Shown: positions 10,918 through 19,625 of the stretch, piece by piece
Numbering within the stretch: the stretch's first letter is position 1
How the letters are laid out: the number at the start of each line of letters is the position of its first letter
Assembly (NCBI GenBank): GCA_947502835.1
Contig: CANNBJ010000003.1
Location: forward strand, 1 to 64,000
Direction of reading: 5' to 3'
Length of the DNA stretch: 64,000 nucleotides
Source of the DNA: Bdellovibrionales bacterium
GTDB lineage: Bacteria; Bdellovibrionota; UBA1018; CAIMNF01
Position numbers and translations under genes: made by a program
Notes under the pieces: model-generated
Told to the model about the DNA's origin: nothing
Databases searched by the model: none
The model's input: the letters and a program-made list of their open reading frames with translations, nothing else

Positions 10918-11790
10918 TCAGTCCTTGATTTGGCTTTCGATCAACTTACGGATCTCTTGAAAGAGATCCTTTGCACCTTCGTCGCTGATCGACGGTGAAT
11001 TCAACTTCTTTTGAGCACCGGTGGAATCAGTCAGGGTGACCGAACTCCAGCTCCCGTAAAGCTTCATGTTCTCTCCTTCTGCGGGTTGTTGATCCGGTTC
11101 CCCCTCGACTGCAATCTCGCCCTTCATCAATTTTTTTATTTTTTCCGAGAGTTCCTGCTCCTCAATTTTGAGAGTCTCGGTTCTTGGCTTGAAATTTTTC
11201 TGGAGAACCTTGATTTCAAGGGCGCTCTCCTCCGATGCCGGGGCGTCGATTGTGTACTTGAGGTCTCCTCCTCCTTCGGTTTCCCACATCAAAGTTTTGA
11301 TCGTGGCGACATCAGCCGGATTGAGCTTCTTCTCGGTCGAGGTCCGGATCAATTGGTTGAGTTCTTCGAAAAGCCCGGCAAGGCTTTCATCCTTGATGAT
11401 GGGTGACTCGACGGTGACGCACTTGCCATCCTTGTCCGTGAAAATGATCTTGGAGTCTTTCTTCTTGGAATCGGTTTCGACTTTGGTTTTCCTCTCAAAG
11501 AGGGACTTCAGTTTCTTAACCAATGCTTCATCCTCGATCTTCACGGTATGATCAACCGATTGGGAACCCACATGTCCCACCTTGACTTCGAATTTTGAAT
11601 CAAGAAAAACCAAAAGGTAATCAAGCGCATCCGCACCTGTCGAGACCCACTCCATGGATTCAAAGGGAGCCTCGGCCTGAGTGACCTTCACAGGGGGTTC
11701 CGGGGTTCCAGGCGGGGCCTTTTGGGCAGCGCAGCCGGAGGCGAGAAGGGTCAGTACCAAAAGAGAGAAAAGCGGGGATTGAATCTTCAT
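10918..11790 (-). CDS. Lipoprotein with two copies of a repeated module (module A)
   Basis: A 290-residue lipoprotein (SPLFSLLVLTLLASGC; lipid on the Cys). The mature part holds two copies of an approximately 110-residue unit: a strand-rich stretch, an acidic helix (KKLKSLFERK; EKIKKLMKG) and an end motif (SPIIKDESLAGLFEELNQLI; SPSISDEGAKDLFQEIRKLI). The same unit, and a near-identical signal peptide, occur in the lipoprotein at 13266-14534, so the two are paralogs. An in-frame ATG at 11808 exists, but the paralog and the promoter spacing favour 11790. Function unknown; probably periplasm-facing. Confidence 0.85.
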   Translation of the reverse strand: MKIQSPLFSLLVLTLLASGCAAQKAPPGTPEPPVKVTQAEAPFESMEWVSTGADALDYLLVFLDSKFEVKVGHVGSQSVDHTVKIEDEALVKKLKSLFERKTKVETDSKKKDSKIIFTDKDGKCVTVESPIIKDESLAGLFEELNQLIRTSTEKKLNPADVATIKTLMWETEGGGDLKYTIDAPASEESALEIKVLQKNFKPRTETLKIEEQELSEKIKKLMKGEIAVEGEPDQQPAEGENMKLYGSWSSVTLTDSTGAQKKLNSPSISDEGAKDLFQEIRKLIESQIKD

Positions 11791-11810
11791 GGGGCCGAAT
11801 GATCCCATGT

Positions 11811-12221: not shown

Positions 12222-13007
12222 TCAGCTGCTTTTCCGGTACTGAAGAACCTCGCCAGTCGTTTTGCACTGTTCATCGAGGCATGATTTCAGGGTGAACTCC
12301 GATCCGTCGGCTTTCGCTCCTTCCACACGGTACGTGGCTCCGGACTCCTCCATATCCTTCTTTAGGGTCACGATGCACGATGTTGCCTTGAATTCAGCGG
12401 TCGAGGAAGCGCTGTCCATCAAGGCCAGGTTGGATTCCACCGACAGAAGCGAGTCATCCTTAAGTTCTGTTTCGCCGGTCTTGACCGTGAAGCTTTCGGT
12501 CTTGTTTGACGTCACAGAGTACGACTTCATTCCATCAAAGTCCTGCATCAGGATGAAGTTTTCCACCCGGAGGGCAGTGGTTTCTTTGGAAACAATCCAG
12601 GATCCGGCGAGTCCCTTGAGATTCGCGCATTCCGATCCGGTGGTACCGGATGAGCCTTTTGCATCCTGATTCCCGGACTCGGCGAGATCCACTACGGGGA
12701 TCTCGATTTTCTCTCTCTTTGGCTCTTCTTCGAATTTAAAGTCGCTGGATTGCCCGTTTGATCCTGTTTCAGTTTCTGATCGGTTCAACCCGTTAGAAGT
12801 TGCAGATGAGGATTCTTGTGGGGCGGTCGCGGAGGAGGGGGCGTTCGCAGAAGGATCCATTTGAAGGCTGTCGAGGCGAAGGCCATCCGCTTGAGTGGGC
12901 TTTGATCCCTGCTTTGGAAGGATGGGGCCGACGTTCGAGCATGCCGACGCAAAGAGGACAAGGAGGAGTGCGATTGGAAAGGAGAACTGTGTGGGTTTTT
13001 TGGACAT
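12222..13007 (-). CDS. Lipoprotein with C-terminal module B
   Basis: A 261-residue lipoprotein (lipobox FASAC). Residues of about 30-120 are a low-complexity Ser/Ala/Gln/Glu linker. The C-terminal 140 residues are a compact domain starting CANLKGLAGSW and ending with paired Cys (CLDEQC), shared with the end of the lipoprotein at 13266-14534 (CKSLRSLEGIW ... CKDESC). The GxW start recalls lipocalin-like folds, but that is a guess. A TTG codon at 13034 could extend the frame but would overlap the promoter; the ATG at 13007 fits the paralog spacing. Confidence 0.82.
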   Translation of the reverse strand: MSKKPTQFSFPIALLLVLFASACSNVGPILPKQGSKPTQADGLRLDSLQMDPSANAPSSATAPQESSSATSNGLNRSETETGSNGQSSDFKFEEEPKREKIEIPVVDLAESGNQDAKGSSGTTGSECANLKGLAGSWIVSKETTALRVENFILMQDFDGMKSYSVTSNKTESFTVKTGETELKDDSLLSVESNLALMDSASSTAEFKATSCIVTLKKDMEESGATYRVEGAKADGSEFTLKSCLDEQCKTTGEVLQYRKSS

Positions 13008-13027
13008 AGGGGCACACTTTATATTGT

Positions 13028-13044
13028 TTGACAAAAAAAGTCAA
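13028..13044 (-). promoter_or_regulatory. Perfect TTGAC-N7-GTCAA palindrome upstream of module-B lipoprotein
   Basis: TTGAC-N7-GTCAA. The minus-strand TTGACT is 33 nt before the ATG and a TATAAA follows about 15 nt later, so a promoter overlapped by a dyad operator is likely. Confidence 0.55.
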
Positions 13045-13073: not shown

Positions 13074-13267
13074 AACTGCCCCCGAAGAATGGACCTAATT
13101 CAGAGGGGTATTGTTCTAAGTGATCGTCATTAAAACGGTTTTTCAAGGTTTATGGGATCTAGGGTCGGCTGCCGCGATTTTTGAGACGAGTCCAAGCCAA
13201 AAGCGTTGAAATGAAGCGGTCCTTGCCCTTTTCTTGGGGGCCTTAGGTCCATTCTTCGGGGGCAGTT
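13074..13267. repeat. MITE-like element: 24/25-bp inverted repeats 145 bp apart
   Basis: The left arm 13074-13098 (AACTGCCCCC, GAAGAATGGACCTAA) and the right arm 13244-13267 are inverted copies differing by one C/G in a homopolymer. Between them is non-coding DNA with no ORF. The right arm ends inside the stop codon of the lipoprotein gene at 13266. No target-site duplication is evident. This covers most of the 13008-13265 intergenic gap. Confidence 0.6.
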
Positions 13268-14534
13268 AGGATGCGACCGAATTTCCGAGTTCCTGAATTT
13301 CCGCTTCCAAGACCTTCTTCTGATCTGCAAGGTCAGAGCAGGATTCATCCTTGCAGAACACATATCCGATCTTGGTGCTTGAATTGGTCTTGCTGGCTCT
13401 CACAATCCGGAAAAAAGTCGTACTTTCAGGCGTAGTGCGGGCACTGGGGATGGACTTTTTGACCATACATGACCGTGGATCATATTCCACGGTGGAGGTG
13501 ATTTCACTTGTATTCACTGCGACGCCATTTCTTTCCGTGTTGAATACCTCCTTCGACAAAAACTTTTGGATCGGACCAGATGTGGATTCCCCGGTTGCCG
13601 GTGAGATTTCTGATCGACTTTTGTATTTGGTATCTCCTATGGCAATTGTTGACGTCCAGATTCCTTCGAGAGAGCGGAGGGATTTGCAAGCTTCCGGGGA
13701 GTTCGATGCCGGCTGATTGTTCGTTTGTTTGTCAGATCGCGAGTTATCAGCACCAAGTGAGGAGTGATCTTGCCCGGATGCAGGTTGATCCTGCCCGGAT
13801 GCAGGTTGATCCTGCCCGGATGCAGGTTGATCCTGCCCGGATGCAGGTTGATCCTGACCGGATGCAGGTTGATCCTGACCGGATGCAGGTTGATCCTGAC
13901 CGGATGCAGGTTGATCGACCTCTTTTTGTTTTTGGCTGGGATTCGATTTCTCCTCGATCAGCCGTCGTAAATCATCAAAAAGAGTTTCCATTCCTTTTGT
14001 CCGAAGAATGGGGGCGCGGATGGTCCATTCCTGATTCGCGAGGGTTTCAAGCAGGACCTTGCTCTGTGAATCACCCATCTCAAGGGAGTCGAGCACAACC
14101 TCATTCCCATTTTGGATGAGGATTCCCCCGTACTTGCCTTTTCCTTCAAACAAGGATGAGACCTTGTCCATGATGTCACCCGTCAGCACGATTTCATGAT
14201 TCATGGACGTAAAGTTGTGACGCGCAAGACTCAGGATCAACGTCCCGTCCTTGTCTTGACCAATGGAATAAAGCAGATCCTTGGAACCACTGGTCTCGAA
14301 GGTGAGTCTTGCCAAACGTAGGTCAGTTTTCCTTGCCTCGCGATCTTGATCTTCTTGTGTTTCCCCGTCTGGAGCGGGAGTGTTTTTCGGATTCCCGGGG
14401 TTGTTCGTAACGATCTTCTCGTCCGTTTTCAAATCAGCCGAATATCCCGGTTGAGCGGTGAGTTGCTGCTTTGTTTGACAGCCTGACAGCAGGGCTAAAA
14501 CCAGGAATGCGAAAAGAGGGCTTGAGGTCTTCAT
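13266..14534 (-). CDS. Composite lipoprotein: module A, seven QPASGQD repeats, module B
   Basis: A 422-residue lipoprotein (signal SPLFAFLVLALLSGC). Residues of about 70-205 form one copy of module A, ending PILRTKGMETLFDDLRRLIEEK (motif LFDDLRRLI). A hydrophilic linker follows with seven perfect QPASGQD heptads. The last 145 residues are module B (CKSLRSLEGIW ... CKDESC), as in the lipoprotein at 12222-13007. The gene thus joins in one chain the domains that two neighbours carry separately. Its stop codon overlaps the end of the adjacent inverted repeat. Function unknown; a surface or periplasm-facing role is likely. Confidence 0.85.
   Translation of the reverse strand: MKTSSPLFAFLVLALLSGCQTKQQLTAQPGYSADLKTDEKIVTNNPGNPKNTPAPDGETQEDQDREARKTDLRLARLTFETSGSKDLLYSIGQDKDGTLILSLARHNFTSMNHEIVLTGDIMDKVSSLFEGKGKYGGILIQNGNEVVLDSLEMGDSQSKVLLETLANQEWTIRAPILRTKGMETLFDDLRRLIEEKSNPSQKQKEVDQPASGQDQPASGQDQPASGQDQPASGQDQPASGQDQPASGQDQPASGQDHSSLGADNSRSDKQTNNQPASNSPEACKSLRSLEGIWTSTIAIGDTKYKSRSEISPATGESTSGPIQKFLSKEVFNTERNGVAVNTSEITSTVEYDPRSCMVKKSIPSARTTPESTTFFRIVRASKTNSSTKIGYVFCKDESCSDLADQKKVLEAEIQELGNSVAS
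13771..13916 (-). repeat. Seven 21-bp in-frame tandem repeats (QPASGQD)
   Basis: Seven direct units of 21 bp, such as TGCCCGGATGCAGGTTGATC. Four units carry GCC and three carry GAC at one position. They sit within the composite lipoprotein gene, and copy-number change would keep the frame. Confidence 0.95.
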
Positions 14535-14690: not shown

Positions 14691-14717
14691 TAAAACTTTT
14701 CCAGTTTTTGCCGATAC
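14691..14717 (+). promoter_or_regulatory. FliA (sigma-28) promoter of the MotB/MotA/FHA operon
   Basis: TAAA (14691-14694), 15-nt spacer, GCCGATAC (14710-14717): matches the FliA consensus TAAA-N15-GCCGATAA except for the last base. A ribosome-binding site (GGGAGA) and the ATG follow at proper distance. Confidence 0.8.
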
Positions 14718-14738
14718 GTCTGACGGGAGAAACTGTCC

Positions 14739-16295
14739 ATGAGCTTTGATTACGACAAGGTGAAAGCCAAACAAGAGGATGCGCACGGCAACAGCTGGAC
14801 CGCGTACTCCGACCTGTTCATGATGCTTTCGACCGTGTTTCTGCTCCTCTATGTTTCGGTGGGGCTCAGAAGCCAAACCTCCGGGGTTGCGGTTCACGAG
14901 AAGATCAAGCAGCTCACCCAGAAGAACGCGGACCTTGAACAACAACTCCAAGTGTACAACACCCTTCGCGAGCAGCACATGAAGAACGAGGCCACTGAAG
15001 AGGAGGCCCAAGTTTACGACAAACTCATGAACAAATTGACCCTTCTCCAGGACGAGGCAAAAGACGAGAAGAATCGTTTGCGCCAGGCGGCCAAGGAAAA
15101 CGAAGAGAAGGAATATGCGCTCAATGAATATCAGCGTCTGATCCGGAACATCATCAACACGAACGTTCTCTCGAAAACCCAACTGGCCAAGAAGGATGTC
15201 ATCATCGCGAAAAAAGACACCATCAATGAAGAGCAGCGCCAGATGATCGAGGAACAGGAAGAGGAGATCAACGCAAATCGCGAGAAGATCGCGCAAACCG
15301 AAAAGGATCTCAAGAACAAGATTCGAGCGCTTCGCGAGGCCCGTGAGAACGAGGAAATCTCGAAGTCACAGATGGAAAAACGCATCGCTGCCCTGAAAGA
15401 GAAGTCGCAGGAGACGATCGAAGCCCTGGAGCGGAAGAACCAGAAGGCGCTCCAGAAGTTCGCGCAGCAGGAAGCCAAGATCAAGGCTGACTTTGAAGCT
15501 CAGCTCGCGCAGGAAAAATTGAGTGGCGCCGAACGGGAGCAGAGAATGGCCGAGTTCGAAGCGGAGGCGAGTGCACGGGAAGCAGCCCTGAAAGGAAAGG
15601 TCAGTGCACTTGGCTCGAAGGTGAGCGAACTTGGATCCAAGGTGGCTCAAGTCGAAGCTGAAAAGGGCAGGGCCCTTGCATCGGTGGATTCACTGCAAAA
15701 AGACCTGAAGCGCGCCCAGGAACTTGCCAATGCACGGAAAGAGCTCGCAAAGAGAATCAACTCCGAGCTGAAGCGGGCAGGTCTTTCAGGATCGGTGGAT
15801 GAGAAGACCGGTGACGTGACCCTTGCCTTCGGAGAAGAGTACTTTGATGCCGGGAGCTCGAAGCTGAAGCCCAGCATGGAGACGACGCTCAAGAAATTCA
15901 TGCCCGGGTACTCCTCGAGTCTTTTCAAGGATCCCAAGATTGCAAACAACATTGAGAACGTCGAGATTGTCGGGTTCGCATCCTCCACCTACAAGGGGCG
16001 GTACGTTCCACCAGATAGTCTCGATCCCAAGGATCGCGAAGCGATCGAATACAACATGAAGCTGAGTTCCCAGCGGGCGAATGCGATCTTCAGCCACATC
16101 GTGGACACGAAGAAAATGAGTTTCGAGCACCAGAAGGATCTTCTTCCGAAGATCAAGGTGGTGGGTCGCGGATACTTGCCGGAAGGAACGAGCGGGAAAG
16201 ATTTACCGAAAAACATGACCCAGAAGGAATTCTGCGCACGGTTCAACTGCAACCAGGCCCAAAAGGTCGTGATCAAATTTAAATTGAAGGATTGA
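14739..16295 (+). CDS. MotB-like protein: N-terminal TM with Asp, coiled coil, OmpA-like end
   Basis: A 518-residue inner-membrane protein. Residues 19-45 form one TM segment of MotB type; AYSDLFMMLSTVFLLLYV keeps the proton-binding Asp (Asp25) where MotB has AYADF. A coiled coil of about 300 residues follows, rich in Lys, Glu and Gln. The last 160 residues are an OmpA/MotB-like peptidoglycan-binding domain (FGEEYFDAGSSKLK; NMKLSSQRANAIF). The coiled coil is far longer than in flagellar MotB, so it may span the periplasm. Followed 10 bp later by the MotA-like gene. It is not a typical flagellar stator; ZorB-like or other MotB homologs are the closest concepts. Confidence 0.85.
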   Translation: MSFDYDKVKAKQEDAHGNSWTAYSDLFMMLSTVFLLLYVSVGLRSQTSGVAVHEKIKQLTQKNADLEQQLQVYNTLREQHMKNEATEEEAQVYDKLMNKLTLLQDEAKDEKNRLRQAAKENEEKEYALNEYQRLIRNIINTNVLSKTQLAKKDVIIAKKDTINEEQRQMIEEQEEEINANREKIAQTEKDLKNKIRALREARENEEISKSQMEKRIAALKEKSQETIEALERKNQKALQKFAQQEAKIKADFEAQLAQEKLSGAEREQRMAEFEAEASAREAALKGKVSALGSKVSELGSKVAQVEAEKGRALASVDSLQKDLKRAQELANARKELAKRINSELKRAGLSGSVDEKTGDVTLAFGEEYFDAGSSKLKPSMETTLKKFMPGYSSSLFKDPKIANNIENVEIVGFASSTYKGRYVPPDSLDPKDREAIEYNMKLSSQRANAIFSHIVDTKKMSFEHQKDLLPKIKVVGRGYLPEGTSGKDLPKNMTQKEFCARFNCNQAQKVVIKFKLKD

Positions 16296-16305
16296 GGAGA
16301 GCGCT

Positions 16306-17358
16306 ATGAACACGGGAGTAACGGGATATTTCTTGGATCTGTTGGTGACATTCGGAAAGGAGCTTTTGCTCCCCTTCCTGACCTTCGGCTTCGTGTCCGC
16401 CATCGCCCTGCGGTTCCTGATTTTCTGGACTGTGAAGCGGGAGGAATGGTTTGTGATGGAGTTTGAACGAAGACTTCAGCGCTACCTGATTCATGAAAAT
16501 CCCCATGGGGTTTTTTCGTTCACGGTCACGCTCAAGCGGATCCTCGAAAAAACCTTCTATGAGCTCTTCCAGACTCGAAGCGAGATGCACCGCCGGAAGT
16601 TCGACCACATCATGGCGCCCAGTGATCGCATTTTCCTGATTCAACAGGGGTCCGCCTATCTGGTTCGTGATTCCATCAAGTATGCGTCCACTCTAAGGAA
16701 GGACGAAGAGGTGGAGGAGAAGGATGAGTTGGTGGAGGTGTCCAAGCACGCCCTCTCGCTCAATCCCTGCTTCACCCGTTTGTTCGGGATCTTTCCGATT
16801 GGTGCGCTCAATGACTTCCTGAATCTGCTCCCGGGGCTTTTCATTGTAGGCGGGATTTTCGGTACGTTTCTCGGAATCATGAAGGCGCTTCCCGAACTTC
16901 AGGGTATGAATCCGAGTGATGCCGAGGGGACAAAGCTCATCATGGATACCTTCCTGGTCAAGATCGCCTTCTCGATGAGCACCTCCACCATGGGGATCCT
17001 CTATTCTGTTGCCTATACCATTTTCAATTCTTTCGTGAATCCTGAGAAGCTTTTCGTGGAGGTGGTGAATCGTTATGAGCGGAACCTGCACCAGCTCTGG
17101 CGCAAGAGCCGCAACAACGACCTTGCCGAACTCACGCGTTTTGACGAGCACCGCGATCCGGTGGAGGCTCTTGCGGAGCTCTCTCTCAAGAAGGAGATCG
17201 CTGCGGACGAAGCCAAGCGTCTCAAAAAACAGACCGAGGACCGACGGGGAATGAGCTATACGGGGCCTGTGAGCACCAAGGCCGCGCCTCCGCCAATGGC
17301 TGCGATCAATCCAAAGTCTTCACGCGATGATGAAGGGAACGGGGACTCAGCTGCTTGA
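16306..17358 (+). CDS. MotA/ExbB/TolQ-like proton channel subunit
   Basis: A 350-residue membrane protein with an N-terminal TM (residues of about 15-42) and two later TM segments carrying family signatures: GLFIVGGIFGTFLGIMKAL, split as GLFIVGG and GIFGTFLGI (compare GLLGTVxG of ExbB/TolQ), and STSTMGILYSVAYTIF. A long cytoplasmic loop lies between TM1 and TM2, and the last 100 residues are charged and probably cytoplasmic. With the MotB-like protein it should form a 5:2-type ion-driven stator. The spacing GIFGTFLG also recalls ZorA of Zorya systems, but no ZorC/D/E is present. Its stop overlaps the TTG start of the FHA gene. Confidence 0.82.
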   Translation: MNTGVTGYFLDLLVTFGKELLLPFLTFGFVSAIALRFLIFWTVKREEWFVMEFERRLQRYLIHENPHGVFSFTVTLKRILEKTFYELFQTRSEMHRRKFDHIMAPSDRIFLIQQGSAYLVRDSIKYASTLRKDEEVEEKDELVEVSKHALSLNPCFTRLFGIFPIGALNDFLNLLPGLFIVGGIFGTFLGIMKALPELQGMNPSDAEGTKLIMDTFLVKIAFSMSTSTMGILYSVAYTIFNSFVNPEKLFVEVVNRYERNLHQLWRKSRNNDLAELTRFDEHRDPVEALAELSLKKEIAADEAKRLKKQTEDRRGMSYTGPVSTKAAPPPMAAINPKSSRDDEGNGDSAA

Positions 17359-19625
17359 AACCAGGCCTTAGAATCCGCATGCGCTTTGACGGGCGCGATA
17401 CCGAAGTGGACGTGGGCGCCGATCAGTGTGTGATCGGTCGTGCGGACTTTCTTGCGGTGCGGATGCCTGCCTGTCCTACCATGAGCCGTGAGCATTTGCG
17501 GGTGGAGTACGGGGATGGCAAGGTTTGGATCACGGATCTGGGCTCATCAAACGGGACTTTCCTCGGGGGGCGAAGGCTCCCGCCGAAGACTCCGATCGAG
17601 TACCGCGGACAGGAACTGGTGGTCGGCGATCTTGAGATGGGAACCAAGGTTTGGATCTTGTACAACGACACTACGGCCCAAACCAACAAGGCCATGGAGT
17701 TGAGCGAGCGGATCCAGCTCCTGCACTTTGAAATCGCGGATCTCGAAAAAGCCAAAGCTGTTGTCGAGGAGAAGCAGCAGGTGATGGTGAAGAGGGTGGA
17801 AGACCTCATTTTCCGCGAGGTCGAGCTCTTCAAGTCCATCGACGAGCTCAAGCGTAAAATCGAAGAAGGCATGATGGAGGCGGAGTTCATTGAGCAGACC
17901 CTGAAAGACTGGGTGCTCAAGAAGGAGGCTGCCGAGATTGCGCTCAGCCAGCACGAGGCGAGCATCGCGGGGATTCAGCAATTCAATGGGGAGGAGGAAA
18001 AACTCCTCTTGGAGAAGAAATCCGAACTCGAGGCTTATCGGGCGAGTCTTGAGCAGGACCGGGCCGAGTCCAAGTCGCGCCACGAGCTGGAACTCGAGCG
18101 CATTGAGGCCGAGTCAAAGCTGAAACGGGCCCAAATTGAAAACGAAATTGAAGAGCTTAGGTCAAAAAAGCTGACAATCGAACGGGATCTGGAGGCGGCA
18201 ACCCTTGAACTCGAAACCGCGGAGCAGCGCGAACCCGAGCTTCGCGCAGAACTCCGGGGGATGGAGGACAGTCTCCATACGGCTCGTGCGGAGCTGGAAG
18301 TGGTGCGGGATCAGATTCCGCTCAGGCGCTCCGAACTGGGTGACTTGGAAGCCCTCGTAACCAGCATCCGGAAAGAAATTGAAGCATCCCAAGGGAAGGC
18401 CGCCCTCATCATCCAGGCAAGCGAGGCTGAGGTCCGCCGGATCGAGTCCGAGTCTGCGGTCAGCATTGCCAGAAAAGAAAAGGAATCGGATGACCAGATC
18501 GCCAAGTCGCGCGAGGAGTGGTTCGGGCAGAGTGAACAGAGAAAGATGGAGCTGGATGGGGTGCTTCGTGCGCGTGAGGCGCAGGCCGATCAAGCCATTG
18601 CGGCATTGAAAGAGAGTTTCGAGGCGCAAAGGACGCGTGAACGGGAATCCTTTGATGCGGAGATGCGGGTTGCGCGCGAAAAGTGGAGCGCTGAAACCAA
18701 GGCAAACGTTGAGAAGTTCCAGAGCGAGCAGACGGCAATCACGAAAGCCTGGAACGAGGAAGTGCGTGTTACAAAAGAACGGGATCTGCAAGATGTCCGT
18801 CTGATCCGTGCCACTGAAGAGCAAAAAATGCGGGAAGTGATCACCGATCATCGGGTGCGATTTGCAAAACAGGTGTCTGCAAGTGCCTTGGCAAGGATCA
18901 CCGGGGCTGATGCAAGCCTGAAGCCCGTCATGACAGGGCTCGAGGCCGAGCTGATCCGGTCCATCGAGGAGTACGCCAGGGGTGAAGGGTATCAGGTCGA
19001 ATCCCATGAGGTGAGCCAACGAAGGTTCATCCGGAAGACGATTGCCTGGGCGGCAGGAAGTGTGGCAGTGGTGCTTGCGTTGATCTATGGACCCGGATTC
19101 TTTGCGAAGAAAATCGACGTTCTGAAGGCCGAGAACGCGGCGGAAAATGCGCAGTTCATGAAGGATCTTCGGGACCAACGCGAACGAATGCTCGCACTCA
19201 AGCTTGAGCCGAGATCCGCATTTCAAGAAACCTATGTTGACAACATCCTCTACAATCCCGGCTACCTTGCGCTCAAGCAGGATGAGGCGGTTCAGAAGGA
19301 GTGGACTGCGGTTCTGTCCAAATTTTTCTTCGAGGTGTTGCTTCTCGACGACCAGAAAGTGGTGAACTACATCCCGGTCGAGACCTCCCTCGTCCGATCA
19401 CTTGCGGATGTGAACCAAGTGTTGAACACGGCCAACTTCGATGTGAATCTCAAGAAAATGAAGAGTCTTGAGGAGGAAAAGCAGACAGAACTCTGGATTG
19501 CGGCGGGGAGCAAGGACAATTGGGAAAAGCTCCGCAAGCGGGAAGCCGAATTCTATGCCGAGAAGGTGAAGTCGATGGGAGATCAAAAGGCACAAGAGCG
19601 CATCCCTGCCGGAAGCGGCCCTTAG
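17355..19625 (+). CDS. FHA-domain, long coiled-coil membrane protein
   Basis: A 756-residue protein. Residues of about 20-95 form an FHA domain with the phospho-threonine-binding signature GR, SREH and SSNGT. Residues 110-500 are an almost continuous coiled coil. A single TM lies near residues 558-580 (IAWAAGSVAVVLALIYGPGFF), followed by a roughly 175-residue domain that should face the periplasm. The likely start is TTG at 17355, overlapping the MotA-like stop (TTGA); an ATG at 17379 is an alternative. Placement in the MotAB-like operon suggests that it couples cytoplasmic Ser/Thr phosphorylation to the ion-driven complex. I know of no named family with this architecture. Confidence 0.85.
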   Translation: MKPGLRIRMRFDGRDTEVDVGADQCVIGRADFLAVRMPACPTMSREHLRVEYGDGKVWITDLGSSNGTFLGGRRLPPKTPIEYRGQELVVGDLEMGTKVWILYNDTTAQTNKAMELSERIQLLHFEIADLEKAKAVVEEKQQVMVKRVEDLIFREVELFKSIDELKRKIEEGMMEAEFIEQTLKDWVLKKEAAEIALSQHEASIAGIQQFNGEEEKLLLEKKSELEAYRASLEQDRAESKSRHELELERIEAESKLKRAQIENEIEELRSKKLTIERDLEAATLELETAEQREPELRAELRGMEDSLHTARAELEVVRDQIPLRRSELGDLEALVTSIRKEIEASQGKAALIIQASEAEVRRIESESAVSIARKEKESDDQIAKSREEWFGQSEQRKMELDGVLRAREAQADQAIAALKESFEAQRTRERESFDAEMRVAREKWSAETKANVEKFQSEQTAITKAWNEEVRVTKERDLQDVRLIRATEEQKMREVITDHRVRFAKQVSASALARITGADASLKPVMTGLEAELIRSIEEYARGEGYQVESHEVSQRRFIRKTIAWAAGSVAVVLALIYGPGFFAKKIDVLKAENAAENAQFMKDLRDQRERMLALKLEPRSAFQETYVDNILYNPGYLALKQDEAVQKEWTAVLSKFFFEVLLLDDQKVVNYIPVETSLVRSLADVNQVLNTANFDVNLKKMKSLEEEKQTELWIAAGSKDNWEKLRKREAEFYAEKVKSMGDQKAQERIPAGSGP

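Follow-up and report, generated by a model that had tools for sequence, protein, structure and literature searches.

The 64,000-nucleotide window analysed here (contig CANNBJ010000003.1 of a Bdellovibrionales bacterium) carries, at positions 14691-19625, an operon of three genes encoding a MotB/ZorB-like protein (protein 1), a channel protein (protein 2) and a membrane protein with an FHA domain (protein 3). This three-gene machine is real, widespread and, as far as we have searched, undescribed, and by its sequence relationships it looks like a Zor-class motor that we do not count as a Zorya system. We favor, with somewhat more confidence than doubt, the possibility that it is an ion-driven motor made in the motile or attack stage, where it would perform envelope work in prey search, attachment or entry.

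Conservation of the three-gene unit

An earlier note on this DNA, which had read the operon as a possible ion-driven machine, made that proposal depend on whether the trio recurs as a unit in other organisms. We examined 60 loci from across the phylum, most of them spanning 12-20 kb, recognising the FHA protein by a whole-length or a C-terminal profile, and found the order MotB-like protein, channel, FHA protein at 48 of them, in many genera and families. The trio is thus not unique to the window. Flanking genes vary between genera and there is no further conserved neighbour gene, so that the trio is itself the conserved unit. Relatives of the channel protein occur in 22 of the 58 genomes of the class, and the channel profile found matches in 179 of 369 phylum genomes, about 140 of them better than about 1e-60 and the others partial or divergent. 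The named relatives are metagenome-assembled genomes of Bdellovibrionales, Bdellovibrionaceae and Bacteriovoracaceae, and in the Bdellovibrio-like genus the trio is near-universal. In the channel tree, families cluster far more than under shuffled labels (24 changes, compared with 44.6 on average), with some exchange between families; inheritance of the trio is mostly vertical. We found no paper describing the trio in the open-access literature. A 2025 survey of MotAB and its relatives does recognise a heterogeneous non-flagellar group, with members of unknown function and with periplasmic domains of very large size (PMC12505986).

There is also evidence that the third partner can be exchanged. 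In a sister clade (loci L046-L051 and L112) the motor pair is kept and the FHA gene is absent, and a divergently transcribed gene adjoins motB. The product of this gene has an N-terminal domain that is weakly FHA-like, hydrophobic segments and ankyrin repeats. An FHA-like identity of this N-terminus is moderately supported by its alignment to that profile (hhalign P 4e-5, control 0.4; probability 70; no Pfam FHA match), and FliA-type sites precede two of the ankyrin-partner genes. The motor seems to be a module that is plugged into differing sensory or output arms. In two divergent pairs (L053, 9355-9822; L054, 1930-2376) the motor genes are followed by a protein of about 150 aa which, judged by eye, has a cyclic-nucleotide-binding domain.

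Promoter and protein architecture

The sigma-28 promoter that the earlier note placed before the operon is near-perfect and is borne out by position and conservation. The site starts 48 nt upstream of the motB/zorB-like ATG and its core ends 21 nt before it. An exact search for the 11-base core finds it twice in the 2.73-Mb genome, roughly as often as expected by chance at that length, and relaxed FliA sites number five genome-wide against four in the reversed control, so that the count alone is uninformative and the motif by itself is no proof. Aligned with its two closest relatives, however, the window shows 86-92% identity over positions -49 to -1, reaching from the -35 box up to the start codon, against 29-32% for the 60 nt preceding the -35 box, and the boundary of conservation is the -35 box itself. 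When the upstream regions of the operon were scored for TTAAR-N15-17-CCGATA against those of other genes at the same loci, a best-site score of at least 13 was reached in 13 of 54 operon upstreams and 11 of 689 controls (Fisher P 5e-10), or in 10 of 44 when counted by genus (P 5e-8); three decoy motifs gave 0 of 54. The genome has a FliA gene (266.9 bits), and of its four other strict FliA sites one precedes a methyl-accepting chemotaxis protein gene, one a CheA-like gene and one a membrane sensor-like open reading frame (ORF) with no Pfam match. A conserved promoter upstream links the operon to the FliA (sigma-28) regulon. In Bdellovibrio bacteriovorus FliA is the global regulator of the attack phase, accounting for two-thirds of attack-phase promoters, and their consensus, TTAAG-N16-CCGATA (PMC3627812), is the motif that we find enriched at operon upstreams.

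The three ORFs are co-directional and, as had been noted, tightly packed, with a 10-nt gap and then a 4-nt overlap. Protein 1 matches the Pfam OmpA (27.6 bits) and MotB plug (14.5 bits) models and, more strongly, the PADLOC ZorB1 model PDLC00609 (106 bits, 5e-31). It has a single transmembrane (TM) helix by hydropathy, at residues 25-43, and across 38 aligned MotB-like sequences W20, Y23, D25 and F34 are invariant, as are G412, S415, N439, L442, S443, R446, C499 and C504 in the periplasmic domain. The distance from the TM helix to the core of the periplasmic domain ranges from 306 to 548 residues (median 377) in 46 sequences, and AlphaFold fills it in protein 1 with four long helices (22-83, 87-203, 209-258 and 263-346; per-residue confidence, pLDDT, mostly 50-86). 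The model as a whole (pLDDT 70.6; predicted template-modelling score, pTM, 0.40) is too uncertain to tell a straight stalk from a folded-back one. A straight helix of 300 residues, at 1.5 angstrom per residue, would span about 45 nm, which exceeds the usual Gram-negative periplasm; the stalk is therefore probably folded back or slanted.

Protein 2 has a TM helix at residues 21-39, then a cytoplasmic stretch of 120 residues and after it two helices bearing the motifs GGIFGTFLGI and SMSTST-GI. This core is conserved among relatives, whose lengths run from 282 to 375 aa apart from one open frame of 819 aa. The long frame (L052:11443-13902, genome G015) lies on a GC-rich contig and may be an over-called start or a genuine extension. 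The earlier description of proteins 1 and 2 as a MotB/MotA-like pair holds as far as a stator-like machine with a membrane aspartate and a stalk is concerned, but the pair is ZorB/ZorA-like and not of the flagellar MotAB type.

Protein 3 has the FHA domain, coiled coil, TM helix and periplasmic domain that were first described for it. Among relatives the spacing between FHA domain and TM helix varies widely (172-1074 residues, median about 650). The part that follows the TM helix is usually about 170 residues long and is well conserved even in distant members. AlphaFold models this part as an all-helical bundle (core pLDDT 94-98), for which Foldseek found nothing below E 1.8 in the PDB, and Pfam found no enzymatic domain in the protein. 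A simple pattern search for the residues of phosphothreonine-binding FHA domains (GR, SR-x-H, NGT) succeeded in 39 of 50 FHA proteins, some of the remainder being split genes, and the binding sites are clearly degenerate in one genus group (L059, L120, L124, L127 and L136). Phospho-reading is thus likely to be common but not needed everywhere. A single eukaryote-like Ser/Thr kinase is encoded in the genome of the window, far off on another contig. Control by Ser/Thr phosphorylation, as suggested in the earlier note, is a conjecture. At two loci the FHA reading frame is split into two or three ORFs (L121:10463-13735; L138:10230-15635), through either sequencing error or a true separation of the FHA part, and genome G145 carries two trio copies (L136 and L137), in the second of which the FHA protein is far shorter, at 467 aa.

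Table 1. Features of the operon, in window coordinates
Feature	Position	Strand	Basis
FliA (sigma-28) type promoter, TAAA-N15-GCCGATAC	14691..14717	+	Footprint and cross-genus enrichment
motB/zorB-like gene, 518 aa; product with a short N-in segment, a single TM helix, a helical periplasmic stalk of ~300 residues and an OmpA-like domain for peptidoglycan binding	14739..16295	+	Pfam, PADLOC, AlphaFold
Asp25 codon in TM helix (WTAYSDLF), presumed proton-binding residue	14811..14813	+	Invariant in 38 sequences
Coiled-coil stalk, residues ~47-347	14877..15779	+	AlphaFold helices; spacing in relatives
OmpA/ZorB-like periplasmic domain, residues 348-518; Cys499 and Cys504 are invariant	15780..16292	+	Profiles, alignment
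motA/tolQ/zorA-like channel gene, 350 aa, three TM regions (TolQ/ExbB/ZorA topology), without long ZorA tail	16306..17358	+	Pfam, PADLOC, topology
FHA protein gene, 756 aa, TTG start, 4-nt overlap with channel gene	17355..19625	+	ORF, Pfam
FHA domain, residues 26-82	17430..17600	+	PF00498, 1.6e-11, 44.9 bits
Cytoplasmic coiled coil, residues ~105-545	17667..18989	+	Sequence analysis
Single TM helix, residues 566-584	19050..19106	+	Hydropathy; helix in AlphaFold model
Conserved all-helical periplasmic domain, residues 585-756, no PDB fold match	19107..19622	+	Alignment of 50 relatives; AlphaFold; fold search

Upstream of the operon, on the minus strand, a predicted lipoprotein ORF (13266-14534) contains a 21-bp tandem repeat at 13723-13937, with about seven to eight near-identical units encoding DQPASGQ repeats. 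It is followed by two more small lipoprotein-like ORFs (12222-13034 and 10918-11808).

The probable counterpart in Bdellovibrio bacteriovorus HD100

One single-contig genome of 3,782,950 bp (G190), which is most likely that of B. bacteriovorus HD100, carries the trio at about 1,107,745-1,112,616. A YkuD-domain gene lies seven genes past its FHA gene, and dnaK is at 1,228,745. Counting back from these two landmarks, taken as the published L,D-transpeptidase Bd1176 (PMC10482364) and dnaK Bd1298 (PMC2797640), the MotB-like gene is probably Bd1167, the channel gene Bd1168 and the FHA gene Bd1169, possibly one or two off. The trio is none of the three published motAB pairs of HD100, those named being Bd3021/Bd3020 and Bd3254/Bd3253 (PMC11323537); their numbers lie elsewhere.

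Bd1167 is known as an array-defined attack-phase gene, annotated 'coiled-coil crescentin like', that is down 30 min into prey (PMC2797640). It was thus published as a possible cytoskeletal protein, whereas we would see in it a motor component. If the numbering is right, the literature already documents the attack-phase expression that we would expect, though under a different name. This fall after prey entry, the taxonomy of the named relatives and the place of FliA in the attack phase together sustain the link to the attack phase of a predator that the earlier note had suggested.

A proposed role and its rivals

By analogy with solved homologues, five channel subunits of this Zor-class (MotA/TolQ/ExbB superfamily) motor would surround two MotB-like subunits. 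Protons or Na+ may cross the channel via Asp25, driving rotation of the pentamer about the dimer, which would grip peptidoglycan through its unusually long periplasmic helical stalk. Beside the motor, the FHA protein may be a dedicated output or control arm, with its FHA domain and coiled coil in the cytoplasm and its helical domain in the periplasm, that reads a phosphorylated partner and either ties the motor to some structure in the cytoplasm or passes on the state of the motor. Expressed with the FliA programme, the operon would belong to the motile stage, which in Bdellovibrio is the attack phase, and its work would most likely be mechanical or sensory, on the envelope, in prey search, attachment or entry, and neither flagellar rotation nor phage defence.

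The closest sequence relatives of both motor subunits are ZorA and ZorB of Zorya types I and II (PDB 8qyd, 8vvi and 8vvn). Profile searches of the PDB returned only ZorA for the channel and, unrelated coiled coils apart, only ZorB for the B subunit. The W-x-x-Y-x-D TM motif, the GTF-x-G channel motif and the three-TM topology are common to trio and Zorya, as is a ZorB-type OmpA-like peptidoglycan-binding domain in which GFAS or GHTS replaces GHTD. This kinship would suit a new type of Zorya, an anti-phage system in which the FHA protein carries the effector and takes its signal from the ZorAB motor, and so would the resemblance of the FHA protein's cytoplasmic coiled-coil rod to the ZorA tail, the patchy presence in the window's genus and the occasional transfer between families. 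We nevertheless consider it quite unlikely. No ZorC-, ZorD- or ZorE-like gene was found among the neighbours scanned, in agreement with the earlier note, so that with its recurrence as a unit the trio withstands both of the conditions under which the note would have been refuted. The channel ends at about 280-380 aa (350 in the window) without the long C-terminal cytoplasmic tail of ZorA. With tail and effector genes missing, and with NCBIfam Zor matches far under the curated cut-offs (29.5 against 400 bits), we do not class the trio as Zorya; the PADLOC ZorA model gave 26 bits for the window's channel and 43 bits for the HD100-like one. Nor does Zorya have the B-subunit stalk of about 300-550 residues, the FHA coiled-coil membrane partner, which as noted carries no enzymatic domain, the FliA-type promoter or the mostly vertical inheritance, near-universal in one genus. 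Furthermore, among 72,556 plasmids, 50,697 phages and viral contigs we found no relatives of the trio besides one weak OmpA/MotB-domain match and a true zorA, the sole channel relative on the plasmids, which sits beside EH-domain (zorC-type) and helicase (zorD-type) genes. On the P. aeruginosa plasmid pPAG5 (L142:7812-8587) zorB is missing from the gene list at its place between zorA and the EH-domain gene, and its frame looks interrupted.

There is precedent for a TolQ-class proton channel working with a bitopic FHA protein in the same broad bacterial group: Myxococcus GltG is likewise an FHA/TM/periplasmic protein and serves the AglRQS motor of the gliding machinery (PMC3169522). Bdellovibrio glides, and the HD100 FHA protein weakly matches GltG over its FHA part. 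That the trio is the motor of an Agl/Glt-like gliding machine, with protein 3 as its GltG, still strikes us as unlikely: (i) GltG ends in a TonB-like domain, whereas protein 3 ends in an unrelated all-helical bundle and matches GltG nowhere beyond the FHA part; (ii) AglQ and AglS are ExbD/TolR-like, whereas the long-stalked B subunit matches OmpA/ZorB models only; (iii) the trio has no conserved neighbour family that is glt-like and (iv) GltG-type matches, none at the family cut-off, occur in all 58 class genomes and do not separate genomes with the trio from those without it. The same null result holds for FliG and FliA, with matches in all 58 genomes (four FliA best matches are below cut-off). 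FliG in every genome of the class, the FliA-type promoter, the membrane aspartate and the OmpA-type B subunit would fit an additional flagellar stator, an idea to which we attach very little weight since flagellar MotA has four TM helices, a torque interface and a FliG-contacting cytoplasmic domain, while the trio channel has three TM regions in TolQ/Zor topology and matches none of the flagellar MotA models; FliG is retained where the trio is absent, the window's genome has its own MotAB (canonical GHTDD MotB, L006), and the three published HD100 stators are loci other than the trio of the HD100-like genome (PMC11323537). A further explanation is a Tol-Pal-like motor for envelope maintenance or peptidoglycan sensing, which would signal strain through the FHA protein without large-scale movement. 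The peptidoglycan-binding-type domain on its stalk, the conserved periplasmic bundle, the cytoplasmic phospho-reader and the exchange of partners described above, as for a signalling branch, could all be accommodated; we regard it as improbable because the FliA linkage favours a motile-stage role and the genome has other TolQ/ExbB-class genes.

Several observations weigh against a motor serving the attack stage, the reading that we prefer. Seven of the 12 species in the window's genus, all >90% complete, are without any relative of the trio yet keep FliA and FliG, so that the trio is dispensable for the flagellated lifestyle of that genus, and its loss or transfer must occur. A good FliA site was not seen upstream of the operon at any of the four loci of the genus Bdellovibrio, the HD100-like one included, from which it follows that FliA control of the trio is not universal or acts from farther away. 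In addition, the MotA_ExbB match of protein 2 (15.1 bits) is below the Pfam cut-off, the Bd1167 assignment depends on gene order and position, and the main text of the predation transposon-sequencing study does not name the trio genes (PMC6561027).

Flagella, TonB import, Tol-Pal, gliding and type IX secretion, and Zorya defence all depend on known ion-driven 5:2 motors. A Zor-type motor kept across a predatory phylum, linked to the attack sigma factor and equipped with a phospho-reader would, if true, be a further job for this class and would point to Zorya as one application of a more ancient motor. More tentatively, and we give this less credence than its opposite, the trio may be a dedicated rotary machine of predatory Bdellovibrionota, with a Zor-type motor, an FHA coiled-coil drive arm and a stalk longer than an ordinary periplasm, used for attaching to prey or entering it. 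In that case the Zor-type motors would form a larger family with cellular jobs, Zorya being a single branch of it. HD100 is routinely subjected to gene deletion and imaging, and the likely presence of the trio in this model predator would make the long-standing question of whether such a motor supplies force in prey invasion directly testable at a specific locus.

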